From Bacteroidota bacterium (GTDB lineage Bacteria > Bacteroidota > Ignavibacteria > Palsa-1295): a stretch of 64,000 bases of DNA. The notes below the pieces were generated by a model that saw only the letters and a list, made by a program, of their open reading frames with translations, was not told the origin of the DNA and searched no databases. Positions 22,879 to 30,622 of the stretch are shown here, piece after piece. Each line of letters begins with the position of its first letter. Position 1 is the first letter of the stretch. Made by a program: the position numbers and the translations under genes. The stretch covers positions 248,001 to 312,000 of the forward strand of contig JAJPIO010000018.1 in NCBI GenBank assembly GCA_021324735.1, read 5' to 3'.

Positions 22879-22933
22879 GCGAAATCGTACTTCCGAGGAG
22901 AATGTTTGTGTGCCGCTAACCTTAAAGCGGCAC

Positions 22934-24664
22934 ATGGATATTAAAGAAAAACGGGTCCTCGTATTAGGTGGGTTTGGTTTGGTCGGTCAGGCGGTTATTA
23001 AGCGCCTGATGCGTGAAGACGAGCGTTTAAAGAACGGCTCGTCCCGCCCTTCCCATATTATAATTACATCTCTCAAACAAAGCGAAGCCGAAGCGGCTGT
23101 CGAATACTTCGAGAAATTATACCCTGGTGGCGAAACAACATTCGAAGCATTCTGGGGTAACTTATTCGTCCGCGAAGAGTGGAAGGACCATTCTCGAGAA
23201 ACGATTTTAGAAGACTCCGCGAAGCGAGATTTGCTTATCGAAGATACATTGGGAGAGCTGACCGAGGCCTCTCTTAAAACGAGCACTCTCTATAATGCCA
23301 TCGAATGGGCGCGCCCCGATGCTATTATCGACTGCATCAATACATCGACCGCGCTTGCTTATCAAGACCTCTTTACGATGGGCAGACGCGTTCGAGCAGC
23401 GGTTAAAGCTGGTGCAAATGACTCGAGCGAACTGGTCGAGCGGCTGCTGGCTAGCCTTTACATTCCGCAACTCATTCGGCATGTTCAAATACTCCATCGG
23501 GCCCTGATCGACTTTAACGTAAATGCTTACGTCAAGGTGGGGACGAGTGGCACCGGCGGCATGGGACTCAACATTCCCTTTACGCATTCCGAAGAACGTC
23601 CGTCTCGAATGTTGCTCGCAAAATCTTCGATCGCCGGTGCTCATTCACTCCTTCTCTTCCTAATGGCGCGTACACCGCGCATGGCCGAGATCGTTAAGGA
23701 GATCAAGCCAACAGCAACGATCGGATGGAAAGAAATTAAGTATGGTCCTGTGCGCAAGGGTGGCAAAGCGATCGAACTTGAAGATATTTCATTCGTAAAT
23801 GCCGAGCCCTTGAGCTCAAAGCTGGAATTACTGAGGCATGGGAATAATAAGCCGTCAATCGATATGCTCGAAGCGGTCTATATCGATACCGGTGAGAATG
23901 GGATTTTCTCGAAAGGCGAGTTCGAGACGATCAGCGCACTGGGACAGATGGAAATGGTAACGCCCGAAGAGATCGCAGAGAATGTTGTCCGCGAGCTTAT
24001 TGGCGCGAGCACTGGTAAGGATGTAGTTTCCGCGCTCGATGCCTCGACAATGGGACCTTCGTATCGTGCGGGCTATTTGCGCGAATCAGCATTGCGCATG
24101 ATGAGCGCGTTGGAAGACGAGACGAAGACTTCGAGCGTAGCCTTTGAAATGCTGGGCCCGCCTCGCTTAGCGAAATTACTCTTCGAGTCTCACCTGCTTC
24201 GCCGTGCAGCAAAAGACTTTGGTGGTGCTCTCAGCCATTCCCCGGAAGAGCTTTCTAAGAAAGCCGAAGAGATACTGAAAGAAGACGATCGCCTTACGAG
24301 CCAGATCGTCTCCATTGGCATTCCGATCCTTCTTTCCGATGGTAAACGGCTTATTCGTGGCAAGCAGATCAAAATCCCGTCTCCGCGATGGAATGCAGAT
24401 GGCTCGACATGGGCTGAGCTTAACGACGAGAAGCGCGACACCTGGGCCCGAGATGGCTGGGTTGACCTTCGCTCCAAAAACATGGAATTATGGCAGCAGC
24501 GACTTTCGCTCATCCGTGATGAAGCGGAAGCCCACGGGAATGTCACCGGATCGGAGCCGGACCGATCCCCGGCTTATTGGGACGATTTCCAAACGCTCAA
24601 CGAGGGACGTCTCGCAGCATGGATCTTCAGCTTCGAAGAAGGCGGAGAGAGAATTAAGCGATAA
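22934..24664 (+). CDS. large Rossmann-fold protein of unknown function
   Basis: A 576-residue cytosolic protein. It opens with an NAD(P)-binding loop VLVLGGFGLVGQAVIKRL (GGxGxxG). Later segments, SLYIPQLIRHVQILHRALIDFNVNAYVKVGTSGTGGMGLNIPFTHSE and AGAHSLLLFLMARTPR, resemble an extended short-chain dehydrogenase/epimerase core: a GTSGTGGMGLN stretch follows the strand after the sixth helix. The remaining about 250 residues are helical and not recognised. A catalytic YxxxK is not apparent. It may be an oxidoreductase or an NAD-sensing protein; that is open. ATG 22934 gives the standard start just before the first strand. Confidence 0.6.
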   Translation: MDIKEKRVLVLGGFGLVGQAVIKRLMREDERLKNGSSRPSHIIITSLKQSEAEAAVEYFEKLYPGGETTFEAFWGNLFVREEWKDHSRETILEDSAKRDLLIEDTLGELTEASLKTSTLYNAIEWARPDAIIDCINTSTALAYQDLFTMGRRVRAAVKAGANDSSELVERLLASLYIPQLIRHVQILHRALIDFNVNAYVKVGTSGTGGMGLNIPFTHSEERPSRMLLAKSSIAGAHSLLLFLMARTPRMAEIVKEIKPTATIGWKEIKYGPVRKGGKAIELEDISFVNAEPLSSKLELLRHGNNKPSIDMLEAVYIDTGENGIFSKGEFETISALGQMEMVTPEEIAENVVRELIGASTGKDVVSALDASTMGPSYRAGYLRESALRMMSALEDETKTSSVAFEMLGPPRLAKLLFESHLLRRAAKDFGGALSHSPEELSKKAEEILKEDDRLTSQIVSIGIPILLSDGKRLIRGKQIKIPSPRWNADGSTWAELNDEKRDTWARDGWVDLRSKNMELWQQRLSLIRDEAEAHGNVTGSEPDRSPAYWDDFQTLNEGRLAAWIFSFEEGGERIKR

Positions 24665-25370: not shown

Positions 25371-25961
25371 ATGAAAGTTATTTTCGCTTTTACGTTATTA
25401 TTGCTTTGGGGAGCGCCCAAATCGACGTTTGCCGGCGGGGAGCCTCGTCTTGCGAATAAGTTGGGTCGTGATTCCACGATCTTTTCGATGAGCCTAATGC
25501 CTAAGCAGATGCCTAAGGTCGGCAAGACGTTCAAAGTTAAAATACACGTTACCCCACACGGCGACTGGCATGTCTATAGCTCAAAAATGAAGAATGAAGA
25601 GGGGCTCACTCCTCTTACGCTTCAGGTGCCTCCACAACTGGAAGATTTTTTCGAGATCGAAAAGATCGAGGAGACCGGTAACCTTCATACCGCCTATGAC
25701 TCTAACTTTATGACGGTAACCATGGCGCATTATTCGCCATACGATATTATCGTTACAATGAAGGTCAAGAAGAAATCGGAAGGCGTTGTACCGTTTTATC
25801 TCTATTTGCATTACCAAACGTGCAACGAGACGATGTGTATGCCTCCACGCACTTTTGCTGTGCCGATGACGGTAATCGGCGAGCAGCCACTAAAGGTCAA
25901 AATCGCTGAGGCTACCGAACTACGACTAAGGAATTATGGTACTGCCTACCGGACGAGATGA
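25371..25961 (+). CDS. stand-alone DsbD N-terminal domain protein (paralog 1)
   Basis: A 196-residue exported immunoglobulin-like protein homologous to the DsbD periplasmic N-terminal domain. The signal peptide is residues 1-21. The conserved Cys pair, Cys151 and Cys156, lies in YQTCNETMCMPPRTFAVPM. In DsbD this pair passes electrons from the membrane domain to periplasmic partners. Its stop overlaps the ATG of paralog 2 (ATGA at 25958-25961). Both precede dsbD, so the three form one operon. Confidence 0.85.
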   Translation: MKVIFAFTLLLLWGAPKSTFAGGEPRLANKLGRDSTIFSMSLMPKQMPKVGKTFKVKIHVTPHGDWHVYSSKMKNEEGLTPLTLQVPPQLEDFFEIEKIEETGNLHTAYDSNFMTVTMAHYSPYDIIVTMKVKKKSEGVVPFYLYLHYQTCNETMCMPPRTFAVPMTVIGEQPLKVKIAEATELRLRNYGTAYRTR

Positions 25962-26563
25962 AATATGCCTATCGACATATTCTCGTTTCTATTTTGCTAC
26001 TTAACATAGTAGCTTCTCCAGCACACGCCAAAGATCCTAAAAATATCTCGACGAAACTAGGCCCGGATTCGACCCACTTTACTCTCTCCGTTCCTAACAA
26101 GCACGTTTTGCACCGGGGTGAAACATTCAACGCTGTAATTCACATCACTCCTGGAAAAGGCTGGCGAATTTGGAGTTCTAAGATGTCCGATGAGGGGGGC
26201 TTGATTCCTTTGAAGGTAATGGTACCTGATTCTCTCGCTAAGTATTTTGCATTAAAAAGTTTTAGGGAAACGGGGGACATTGTAACTTCATATGACTCTA
26301 ATTTCTATTTCGCACCGGTAGCCCATTTAACCCCCTTTGATGTAATAGCGACCATCAAGGTAAAACATAGGAGTCCTATAGCGCTGCCTTTCTCCTTATT
26401 GGTTCTATTTCAAACAGTTGATTCCCAGTATTGCATGCCGCCGCGCACTTTTGCAGTTCCTATGACGGTTATAGCACAAAAGCCGGTCATGCTTAGATTG
26501 GCTAGTACAGAGGCAACGTATCGTTATCCAATTGATTTGGCGGTTTTGGGTGGATTGAGATGA
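25958..26563 (+). CDS. stand-alone DsbD N-terminal domain protein lacking one Cys (paralog 2)
   Basis: A 201-residue paralog of the preceding gene with signal peptide residues 1-24 (ILLLNIVASPAHAK). It aligns with it and with the dsbD N-domain along the whole length (PDSTHFTLSVPNKHV, WRIWSSKMSDEGGLIPL). The expected Cys pair reads FQTVDSQYCMPP: Val154 replaces the first Cys while Cys159 remains. A single Cys cannot form the intramolecular disulfide. The stop overlaps the dsbD start by ATGA. The gene is visibly more AT-rich than the dsbD core, as is the first 500 bases of dsbD. Confidence 0.85.
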   Translation: MKYAYRHILVSILLLNIVASPAHAKDPKNISTKLGPDSTHFTLSVPNKHVLHRGETFNAVIHITPGKGWRIWSSKMSDEGGLIPLKVMVPDSLAKYFALKSFRETGDIVTSYDSNFYFAPVAHLTPFDVIATIKVKHRSPIALPFSLLVLFQTVDSQYCMPPRTFAVPMTVIAQKPVMLRLASTEATYRYPIDLAVLGGLR

Positions 26564-28659
26564 TTGCAATTCGAAATATCACGTGGATTTTAATAGTGCT
26601 TCTGGGCAGCATGTGGGCCAGCACGTCCTTTGCCCGCGATCCAAAGCTTGCTGTAAAGCAATATCCTGACTCTGCTATTTTTAAGGCAAGCCTTGAAAAA
26701 GGTGAGGTACCTACCGCTGGTAAGACTTTCAAAGTACGCATTCATGTCAAAGTTCGGCAGCCCTATCATATTTGGAGTTCCACCATGGCTGACGAAGGTG
26801 GTTTGATCCCGTTACGGATTAAAATACCTGACTCTTTGAAAGAGTACTTTCAACTTGTGGATGTTAAAGAGCAAAGTAAACCTGTCATTGGGTATGACTC
26901 GAACTTTCAGCAAGTAACAAAGGCAATTCATAAACCTTTTGATCTTATTGCAACAATAAAGGTCCTTCGTAATTCAAAAACACCAGTCCCGTTCTTCGTA
27001 CATCTGATTTATCAGACTTGCGATGAAATACAGTGCCTGCCTCCTGCGATGTTCAATGTTCCAATGGATGTCATTGGTGACAAACCATTGATGATTAAGA
27101 TCGCATACGGCACACCAGATACCACTGCGCCATCGTTAACATCTCTCGATTCGGGTAGCAGCACTAGCCTCAACCGCGATTCCACTACTCGCATGGGACA
27201 AGTGGCAGGTGGTTCGTCGAGCGCTCCACCAAGTGCACCCAATGCGGCGGTTAAGGCAACAGCCACCGCTACGACGGGTGGTGTTGGCGGCTCATTATGG
27301 CAAGTAATACTTTTGGCAGCTGGTGGCGGCCTTCTGGCGTTGCTCACGCCCTGTGTATTTCCGATGGTGCCGATCACCATCAGCTTCTTTACTAAGCGGA
27401 ACGCCGGTTCAAAGAAAGAGGCAGCAAAGGATGCCCTGCTATATGCTGCCGGTATCATTCTTCCGTTCGTACTCTTCGGTTTTATTCTTACCCTGGTTTG
27501 GGGTGAAGGAGCGATCAATTCGTTTGCTGCAAATCCGGTAACTAATGTCGTTACATCGGTTATATTCCTTACGTTTGCGCTCAATCTGTTTGGCTTGTTC
27601 GAGATCGGCTTGCCGTCATCGGTCGTAACAAAGCTTAATATTTCCGCACAGCAGTCGAAGAGCCGGGTATTTTCGGTAATGCTGATGGGTGTTGTATTCT
27701 CGCTTACGAGCTTTACCTGCACGGTGCCGATCGTCGGTACGCTGATGTCAGCATTCTCGCACGGCGCATTCTTTTATCCGCTGATCGGAATGTTGGTCTA
27801 TGCGACGATCTTCGCTGCTCCGTTCGTCGTGCTTGCCTTCGTTCCGAATGCGCTCAAGTCGCTTCCACGCTCGGGCACGTGGATGAACAATGTAAAAGTG
27901 GTGCTCGGTTTTGTCGAACTCGGCGCAGCGCTGCTATATCTATCGAAAGCTGATTTCACGTGGTCGCTGCATCTTATCACTCGCGATATGGTGCTTGCCT
28001 GCTTGGTCGCACTTGCGATACTTATTACAGTATACGTCCTCGGACGATTCAGGCTTTCGCATGATACACCGGTCGAACATATCGGTGCTATTCGCGCTTT
28101 GTTCGCGGTATTCTTCTTATCAATTGGTATTTATCTGTATACAGGGTTCAATGGCCGCCCGCTTGGACAGTTCGATGGCTTCCTGCCTCCTGCTGATTAT
28201 GGCGATGGCTCACAATCGGTTGCTACGACAAGTACTAATGTGAAGGGTACTCCGACCGCGCAAGTTATAGAACAGTGGATTCCCTCCTACCCCACAGCAC
28301 TGGCAGAAGCAAAGAAGACAGGAAAGAACATCTTCATCGATTTTACCGGCTATAGCTGTACGAATTGCCGCGCCATGGAGGCTACGGTCTTCAGCCGGCA
28401 GGACGTCAAGCAGATGTTTCAAAACTTTGTGCTTGCTCGTCTCTACACGGATAAGGGCGATGCCTTAAACGATTCGAACCGCACGATGGAAGAATCGCGC
28501 TTCAATACGATCGCTCTTCCCTTTTATGTTATTGTCTCTCCGGATGATAAACCGTTAGCAACCTTCCCCGGCTATACGCGTAATGCCGAAGACTTCAAGA
28601 GCTTCCTGCGCCTCGAGCACCCGAATGCCGAGCCCGCGGTAGCGATGCTCACGCACTAA
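26560..28659 (+). CDS. dsbD: thiol:disulfide interchange protein DsbD
   Basis: A 699-residue three-part reductase. The N-terminal periplasmic domain is residues about 22-185 with Cys154 and Cys159 in YQTCDEIQCLPP. The eight-helix membrane domain has Cys265 (LLTPCVFPMVPITI) and Cys387 (SFTCTVPIVGT). The C-terminal thioredoxin-like domain has CTNC (Cys600-Cys603) in FIDFTGYSCTNCRAME. All six redox cysteines are present, so electrons can go from cytosolic thioredoxin to the periplasm. A Ser/Ala-rich linker separates the first two domains. It forms an overlapping operon with two N-domain paralogs. Confidence 0.95.
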   Translation: MIAIRNITWILIVLLGSMWASTSFARDPKLAVKQYPDSAIFKASLEKGEVPTAGKTFKVRIHVKVRQPYHIWSSTMADEGGLIPLRIKIPDSLKEYFQLVDVKEQSKPVIGYDSNFQQVTKAIHKPFDLIATIKVLRNSKTPVPFFVHLIYQTCDEIQCLPPAMFNVPMDVIGDKPLMIKIAYGTPDTTAPSLTSLDSGSSTSLNRDSTTRMGQVAGGSSSAPPSAPNAAVKATATATTGGVGGSLWQVILLAAGGGLLALLTPCVFPMVPITISFFTKRNAGSKKEAAKDALLYAAGIILPFVLFGFILTLVWGEGAINSFAANPVTNVVTSVIFLTFALNLFGLFEIGLPSSVVTKLNISAQQSKSRVFSVMLMGVVFSLTSFTCTVPIVGTLMSAFSHGAFFYPLIGMLVYATIFAAPFVVLAFVPNALKSLPRSGTWMNNVKVVLGFVELGAALLYLSKADFTWSLHLITRDMVLACLVALAILITVYVLGRFRLSHDTPVEHIGAIRALFAVFFLSIGIYLYTGFNGRPLGQFDGFLPPADYGDGSQSVATTSTNVKGTPTAQVIEQWIPSYPTALAEAKKTGKNIFIDFTGYSCTNCRAMEATVFSRQDVKQMFQNFVLARLYTDKGDALNDSNRTMEESRFNTIALPFYVIVSPDDKPLATFPGYTRNAEDFKSFLRLEHPNAEPAVAMLTH

Positions 28660-28732: not shown

Positions 28733-30622
28733 ATGCCAGCACTCGCCCAAAATACGGACACAGCAACCCTCGACCGCTTTTCTAAGCGGCTTCGAACGGC
28801 TGTTGCCCACCCCATCCTTACCGATGGATCCATGGCAGCAACGCTTCATGCAACCGGTCACACCGATCCGGTTATCGAGCGGTACAATCTTACCCAACCA
28901 ATTGCCGTCGAGCATGTGCATCATAGTTTCGCGGAGGCTGGCGCCGAGCTTATAATGACGAATACCGAGCATGCGAATCCCATAACGCTTGCTCGTCATA
29001 ATTTGGCGGAGAAAACCTATGAGATCAATCGTAAAGGTGTATGGCTGGCACGCACGGTTGCAAGTGAACATGGGTCGTTTGTTGCGGCAGCAGTTGGACC
29101 GGTCGGCAAATTTCTCTTCCCCGTTGGTCCGTTAAAGCATGATGATGTACGTCATGCATTTCACGAGCAAATTCTCGCGCTCGCCGATGGCGGACCCGAT
29201 GCGCTGATCTTAAAGAGCTTTATCGATCTCACCGAACTAGAGATCGCGATCGAAGAAGCACAATCCATCGCACCGCACCTTCCGATCATTGCGCAAAAAA
29301 CTTTCCCGGAAGATGGCGCTCTTTTGGCGACAGACTTTGCACGCAAAGTCGCAGAGAAGTTAGTCTCTTATAACTTGGCCGCTATTGGAACAAACGGCAC
29401 CGTCGGCCCTAACCGAATGCTCTCCATTATTCAAGCTTTTGCACTTCCGGGTATTCCTATCAGCGCGCAGCCCGATATTGGAATTCCCACACTGGTGGAA
29501 GGGCGCGCAATTTATCATGCCACACCAGAATACTTAGGCGAGAGCGCAAAGCGGTTGGTCGAAGCGGGCGTTTCTATTATCGGAGCGTATGGAGGTGCAT
29601 TACCCGAGCATATTGCGGCTATTCGAGATGCGATCGAAGGCGTACCGGCAGGAGAAATTCACATCGCAGAGATAAAGCTCAAACCTGAACAACGCAACGG
29701 TAAGTCGAACGAGGAGAAGTTTTCCAGGTTCAAGCAAAAGCTTGGCAAAAAGTTTTTAGCAACGGTCGAGCTCGACGTTCCCCGAGGACTCGATATGTCG
29801 AGTGTAACGGAAGGTGCTTCTTACCTCGCCAAAGCAGGCATCGACGCGGTAAATATTTCGGATGGTGCTCGTGCTCGACTCCGTATGAGTTCGATCACGA
29901 TCAGTCATTTGGTGCAGTCGCAATGCGGCATTGAAGCAATGACTCATGTTGCATGCCGCGATCACAACATGGTGGGATTGCAATCGGAGTTACTGGGCGC
30001 AGACGCACTTGGCGTTCGCAATATCCTTTGTGTAACGGGCGACCCAGCGCAGATCGGCGATTATCCCTACGCCACAAGCGTCTACGATATTGATGCGATA
30101 GGTCTTATTCGTGCGGTAAAGTCGATGAATGAAGGCGGTGACCTCATGGGTAATCCGATCGCCGGCGAAGGCATTAACTGTACGCACTTTCTCATTGCAT
30201 GCGGATGCAATCCCGTAGCGGATGATATGGAGCGTGAACTTAACAGGCTCGAGCGCAAGATCGCAGAAGGCTGCGAAGTGATCTTTACCCAGCCACTCTT
30301 TGAAATGCCCGCGCTCGAACACTTTATCGAATTGGTAAAGCCATTCCAGGGTAACGCGAAGATCATGCTTGGCATACTGCCGCTTCGCAGTAAACGACAT
30401 GCCGAATTCCTTCACTACGAAGTGCCGGGTATGTCGATACCGGATTGGATCCACAAGCGAATCTCGAAGCATTCGAGCGTAGAAGCGCAAAGTGCCGAAG
30501 GTATTGCTATTTGCGTCGAATTCTTGAAAGAGGCAAAATCATTAGTGGATGGTGCGTATCTGATGCCGCCTTTTAAGCGATACAATATGGCGGTCGAGGT
30601 CCTCGAAAAGATAGGAGTGTAG
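28733..30622 (+). CDS. Hcy-methyltransferase-like/MTHFR fusion protein
   Basis: A 629-residue fusion like B. subtilis YitJ. Residues about 20-300 are a homocysteine S-methyltransferase (S-methyl_trans) barrel, and about 335-629 a methylenetetrahydrofolate reductase barrel (FLATVELDVPRGLD, THVACRDHNMVGLQSELLGADALGVRNILCVTGDP, the FTQPLFEMPALEHF stretch), which looks intact. In the first domain every zinc-cysteine position is changed: the GxNC site reads AIGTNGTVGPNRM, and the GGCCG site reads IIGAYGGALPEHI. Classical Zn-dependent thiolate activation of homocysteine is therefore not expected. The overall fold signature (LTDGSMAATLHATG, MTNTEHANPITLARHNL) remains. Confidence 0.85.
   Translation: MPALAQNTDTATLDRFSKRLRTAVAHPILTDGSMAATLHATGHTDPVIERYNLTQPIAVEHVHHSFAEAGAELIMTNTEHANPITLARHNLAEKTYEINRKGVWLARTVASEHGSFVAAAVGPVGKFLFPVGPLKHDDVRHAFHEQILALADGGPDALILKSFIDLTELEIAIEEAQSIAPHLPIIAQKTFPEDGALLATDFARKVAEKLVSYNLAAIGTNGTVGPNRMLSIIQAFALPGIPISAQPDIGIPTLVEGRAIYHATPEYLGESAKRLVEAGVSIIGAYGGALPEHIAAIRDAIEGVPAGEIHIAEIKLKPEQRNGKSNEEKFSRFKQKLGKKFLATVELDVPRGLDMSSVTEGASYLAKAGIDAVNISDGARARLRMSSITISHLVQSQCGIEAMTHVACRDHNMVGLQSELLGADALGVRNILCVTGDPAQIGDYPYATSVYDIDAIGLIRAVKSMNEGGDLMGNPIAGEGINCTHFLIACGCNPVADDMERELNRLERKIAEGCEVIFTQPLFEMPALEHFIELVKPFQGNAKIMLGILPLRSKRHAEFLHYEVPGMSIPDWIHKRISKHSSVEAQSAEGIAICVEFLKEAKSLVDGAYLMPPFKRYNMAVEVLEKIGV

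Follow-up and report, generated by a model that had tools for sequence, protein, structure and literature searches.

Loss of the zinc site in an HMT/MTHFR fusion of a Kapabacteria-type clade points to a probably non-catalytic domain on the cell's only MTHFR

The window (the whole 64,000-nucleotide stretch of DNA that we analysed) contains a gene for MTHFR (methylenetetrahydrofolate reductase, which makes methyl-folate); its product begins with a homocysteine (Hcy) methyltransferase-like (HMT-like) barrel that has none of the expected zinc-binding cysteines. Is such a domain still a methyltransferase and, if it is not, why is it kept? Our analysis indicates that the first domain of the fusion is probably no longer a methyltransferase, and that it is a structural or regulatory part of the protein instead. 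We infer that it holds no zinc, that it transfers no methyl group, and that MTHFR depends on it.

An intact fusion gene with two predicted barrels

The gene and its domains are laid out in the window as follows:

28733..30622, + strand: HMT-like + MTHFR fusion gene, 629 aa, intact open reading frame
28811..29644, + strand: HMT-like (S-methyl_trans) barrel, residues 27-304, without cysteine
29645..29722, + strand: interdomain linker, residues 305-330
29747..30613, + strand: MTHFR domain, residues 339-627

The exact start is uncertain: the frame stays open for another 30 codons upstream, and homology starts at about residues 12-16. An earlier note on this DNA had identified the first domain as an S-methyl_trans barrel, and by Pfam searches we found the same, with a match to residues 29-300 at 162.9 bits (cut-off 22). 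The Pfam MTHFR family matches residues 339-601 at 113.2 bits (cut-off 24), and the profile NF006396 (bifunctional HMT/MTHFR) spans residues 25-627, in the order HMT then MTHFR, at 605.4 bits (curated cut-off 453). An AlphaFold2 model made with 38 sequences predicts two well-folded barrels (mean pLDDT 84.6), with a pTM of only 0.63 that leaves the packing of the domains unsure. The first predicted barrel resembles BHMT (1lt8; Z 34.0, 2.5 Å over 273 residues) and also matches MmuM, and the second resembles T. thermophilus MTHFR (8eac; Z 29.0, 2.6 Å over 268 residues).

Upstream of the fusion we found no riboswitch above Rfam thresholds. The downstream glycosyltransferase and epimerase genes are conserved in close relatives only and are uninformative as context. 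On the other side of the fusion there is a DsbD-like gene (DsbD_TM + thioredoxin; 25371-28659, + strand), preceded by two small secreted-looking proteins that are similar to the DsbD-like N-terminal domain; arrays of this kind also occur in the relatives L037, L038 and L070. A 584-aa protein without a Pfam match (22910-24664, + strand) has counterparts with 71-72% identity near the fusion in the genus relatives L037 and L038.

Loss of the zinc and homocysteine sites

In MetH, three cysteines hold the zinc, the first of them at the end of strand 6; the amino group of Hcy is bound by conserved carboxylates (PMC539065). The corresponding positions of the window protein are:

29381..29398, + strand: AIGTNG, residues 217-222, with Gly222 where the first zinc cysteine is expected
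29576..29596, + strand: IIGAYGG, residues 282-288, with Tyr286 and Gly287 where the second and third zinc cysteines are expected
29213..29215, + strand: Lys161, standing where a Glu is invariant at the Hcy amino site

Alignment with the PDB sequence of T. maritima MetH pairs G222 with the GINC cysteine, and Y286-G287 with the CC of GGCCG, which bears out the claim in the earlier note that all three zinc cysteines are absent. Other cysteines near the metal site, which would speak against that claim, are missing too: residues 27-304 contain none, and the fusion protein has its first cysteine at residue 398, within the MTHFR half. There is also a fourth loss, unreported in the earlier note. The acid of the IIETF motif is Lys161 in the fusion, a position that is always Glu in the two sets of Cys-bearing relatives compared (46/46 and 19/19). 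We take this Glu, from the MetH and BHMT structures, to be one of the carboxylates that bind the Hcy amino group.

A single loss in one clade

Our sample comprised 135 distinct fusions, drawn from 38 loci of our genome collection and from class- and phylum-wide searches. The Cys-Cys-Cys set is kept in 65 of them and lost in 68, and all 68 belong to one clade of uncultured bacteria (the loss clade), which covers about ten families with record names that include Candidatus Kapaibacterium and Ignavibacteria. The same losses thus recur in relatives, a check that the earlier note had proposed. Because 68 distinct sequences share the pattern, the missing cysteines are not due to sequencing error; chance is excluded likewise.

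Cys-bearing relatives are 48-52% identical to the window fusion. In a tree built from the MTHFR half only, and so without trait columns, one change suffices to account for the loss clade (SH-aLRT 94). The intact zinc site is likely to be ancestral, because three Bacillota YitJ-type fusions (from Niallia, Cytobacillus and Priestia) keep GxNC, GGCCG and Glu, and the wider Cys-bearing group keeps all of these residues as well. At the level of sequence, these data show a single loss of the zinc-site set, at the base of the Kapabacteria-type clade.

Part of the zinc site has also been lost independently, for a second time, in two further fusions, at the loci L166 and L167 (genomes G192 and G385). 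The ligand positions there are Ser, Cys and Leu/Val, the equivalent of Glu161 is kept, and both genomes have MetH.

Constraint on the altered domain

The MTHFR half was said in the earlier note to be intact, and its conservation agrees: 52 of its 54 core residues are kept at ≥90% in the loss clade. E346, D437 and Q520, which we take from their motifs to be the equivalents of the catalytic residues Glu28, Asp120 and Gln183 of E. coli, are invariant in 135/135 fusions. The same half has C408 (29954-29956) in every loss-clade sequence (68/68), whereas the Cys-bearing sister group mostly has Thr there.

In the Hcy half, only 34 of the 59 HMT core residues are kept at ≥90% in the loss clade. The other 25 are what would be expected of a dead domain drifting toward loss, but new residues have become fixed in the same half, as in these examples:

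28829..28831, + strand: Ser33, 68/68 in the loss clade; Ala or Gly in Cys-bearing relatives
29030..29053, + strand: helix residues 100-107, with the new invariant residues R100 and W104 (68/68), and also R107
29474..29476, + strand: Asp248, new and near-invariant, 67/68 of the loss clade

Altogether, twelve positions of the Hcy half are newly conserved at ≥88% in the loss clade, four of them in 68/68 sequences. Phe66 is invariant (68/68), and residue 161 is Lys in 60/68 and Arg in 5/68. At each of the positions of S33, F66, R100, W104, D248 and K/R161, Cys-bearing relatives usually carry another residue. The Hcy half has a median dN/dS of 0.071 among close pairs of loss-clade sequences, and the MTHFR half one of 0.062; both values are rough, because many pairs are close to saturation at synonymous sites. 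Purifying selection and new invariant residues both argue against decay, as do the lack of a separate MTHFR in any of the loss-clade genomes (0/58) and the single ancient origin of a trait now spread over about ten families, and we consider decay very improbable. Judging from the low dN/dS and the newly fixed residues, the Hcy half is not decaying.

Two further comparisons count against the main reading given below. The Hcy half diverges faster than the MTHFR half in the loss clade (ratio 1.24) and in the distant Cys-bearing group (1.26), but not in the Cys-bearing sister group (0.79). Since the distant Cys-bearing ratio is about equal to that of the loss clade, the rate alone is no sign of relaxed constraint, and we did not draw that conclusion. 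The changed positions are not clustered at the C-terminal rim of the barrel, under a rough definition of the rim (Fisher P = 0.56).

Most of the loss clade has Asp or Glu at position 286, and D248 is near-invariant, so D31, D248 and D/E286 might form a carboxylate metal site, and the domain might still be a methyltransferase that uses another metal or a non-thiol acceptor. However, the window protein's own family has Tyr, Ala, Ser, Cys or Phe at position 286, position 161 is Lys, and G35, T36, Y66 and Y271 of the HMT core have been lost in the loss clade. We regard a surviving methyltransferase of this kind as improbable.

Other methionine synthases in the same genomes

The assembly that contains the window (3.55 Mb, 100% complete by estimate) has the fusion as its only MTHFR. 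It contains three S-methyl_trans genes: the first half of a split MetH, a standalone HMT, and the window fusion. The Hcy domain of the split MetH keeps GMNC, GGCCG and the amino-site carboxylate, and the cysteines of the standalone HMT are intact. As to the split itself, the Hcy/folate and B12/activation halves of this MetH (L001 and L005 of genome G000) lie on separate contigs, C8 and C1, and the B12/activation half is an ORF of 637 aa.

We found exactly one MTHFR match in each of 58/58 loss-clade genomes, always in an open frame of 607-798 aa, which is the size of the fusion. The Hcy-like domain has therefore never been shed. A further Hcy domain is present in 53 of the 58 genomes, with the three cysteines and the Glu intact in all of the copies that we read (36/36). 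The remaining five genomes (G529, G540, G552, G570 and G627) form one family, with genome sizes of 1.8-2.0 Mb, and have a full-length MetE (755-866 aa), whose zinc-ligand motifs we read in four of the five. These five genomes lack MetH, whereas their loss-clade relatives use it.

A dependence of methionine synthesis on the fusion's domain is disfavoured, given that 58/58 genomes have another Hcy domain or MetE. The MetE-only family also still keeps the zinc-free domain. As it does so without MetH, the domain is not needed to dock MetH, and retention for docking is disfavoured too. Its role is instead most likely to be inside the MTHFR polypeptide.

Probable role of the domain

We consider it likely, on the sequence evidence, that the domain is a zinc-free pseudo-enzyme barrel that serves as a non-catalytic part of the cell's MTHFR, in either a structural or a ligand-sensing role. 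Of the two suggestions made in the earlier note, a structural or allosteric cap is the better supported, whereas use of another methyl acceptor has found no positive support. The cap is favoured because the zinc ligands and the acid at the Hcy amino site were lost together in one clade, and because the domain is under strong purifying selection, MTHFR is never separate from it, and another methionine synthase is present.

A purely structural barrel, that is, a ligand-free folding or oligomerisation partner of MTHFR, is a plausible form of this role that we hold tentatively. It would fit the obligate fusion in all loss-clade genomes, the new invariant helix residues R100 and W104, and a linker of almost constant length in the loss clade, where it has 24-28 residues and is shorter than in Cys-bearing relatives (27-44). 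The N-terminal barrel of MetE, which derives from an Hcy barrel and has no zinc or Hcy determinants, provides a precedent. However, S33, K/R161 and D248 are fixed at motifs of the canonical pocket, which goes beyond the obvious need of a buried filler.

Such new charged and polar residues favour a function for the pocket, and it is possible, though we think it somewhat less probable, that a compound of one-carbon or sulfur metabolism, such as methionine, AdoMet, AdoHcy or a folate, binds in the remodelled pocket and so tunes MTHFR. The attachment of the domain to the cell's only MTHFR, which catalyses the committed step, and its retention in genomes without MetH are consistent with an allosteric sensor. 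Against it, prokaryotic MTHFRs have been described as lacking SAM regulation (PMC13001107, PMC5995969), and a sensor would be new for that reason. That the Hcy domain was rebuilt into a ligand-sensing allosteric domain of a prokaryotic MTHFR, independently of the SAM-binding regulatory domain of eukaryotes, seems to us possible but less likely than not.

For a non-catalytic part of MTHFR, whether structural or sensing, we propose the following origin. The starting point would have been an active YitJ-type fusion, altered a single time, in the last common ancestor of the Kapabacteria-type clade. A separate methionine synthase was probably present in this ancestor already, so that the Hcy-activating site would have been free to go. 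The cysteines and the acid that binds the Hcy amino group were lost, and the top of the barrel would have been refilled by the new conserved set of S33, K/R161 and D248. The domain would persist because it is needed by the MTHFR half, be it to fold and assemble or to sense a small one-carbon or sulfur metabolite.

The clade appears to offer a clean and ancient conversion of an enzyme domain into an apparently non-catalytic one, with Cys-bearing sisters available for direct comparison, and the family that uses MetE without MetH is a natural control in which the domain is still kept. Retention of a non-catalytic domain on the sole MTHFR makes the lack of SAM control described for prokaryotic MTHFRs testable. 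For annotation, the automatic label 'bifunctional HMT/MTHFR' assigns an activity that is probably absent from the whole loss clade.

Comparison with known systems

The YitJ-type fusions described by NF006396 match the window protein in domain order, in length and in sequence from end to end (605 bits). By sequence, the descent and architecture of the fusion are thus those of the YitJ type, but the zinc-site feature that defines active homocysteine methyltransferases is missing: the three YitJ-type fusions from Bacillota keep the zinc cysteines and the Glu, whereas the window protein has lost all three cysteines and the amino-site acid. The Hcy domain of T. maritima MetH (1q7m, 3bof) is among the best structural and sequence matches to the fusion's first barrel, and here again the comparison is between a protein with Cys-Cys-Cys and the amino-site carboxylate and one without either. 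We found no open-access paper on zinc-site loss in HMT/MTHFR fusions, and one may exist elsewhere.

Eukaryotic MTHFR, like the fusion, combines an MTHFR barrel with an appended non-catalytic domain; for the fusion, regulation by this domain is a hypothesis. The SAM-binding regulatory domain of the eukaryotic enzyme is C-terminal and has an unrelated fold (PMC5995969), whereas the fusion's domain is N-terminal. The MesB-like proteins of Chloroflexales are relatives of methionine synthases in which, as in the fusion, the zinc ligands are not conserved (PMC7857596); unlike the window protein, they are related to MetE rather than to S-methyl_trans, and are not fused to MTHFR. By analogy, the closest precedent for a zinc-less barrel is the N-terminal barrel of MetE, which, like that of the fusion, derives from a zinc/Hcy barrel, has lost its determinants, and is kept alongside an active barrel as its partner (PMC539065). 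MetE belongs to another family with other zinc chemistry, and the partner in its case is an Hcy barrel, whereas in the fusion it is MTHFR.
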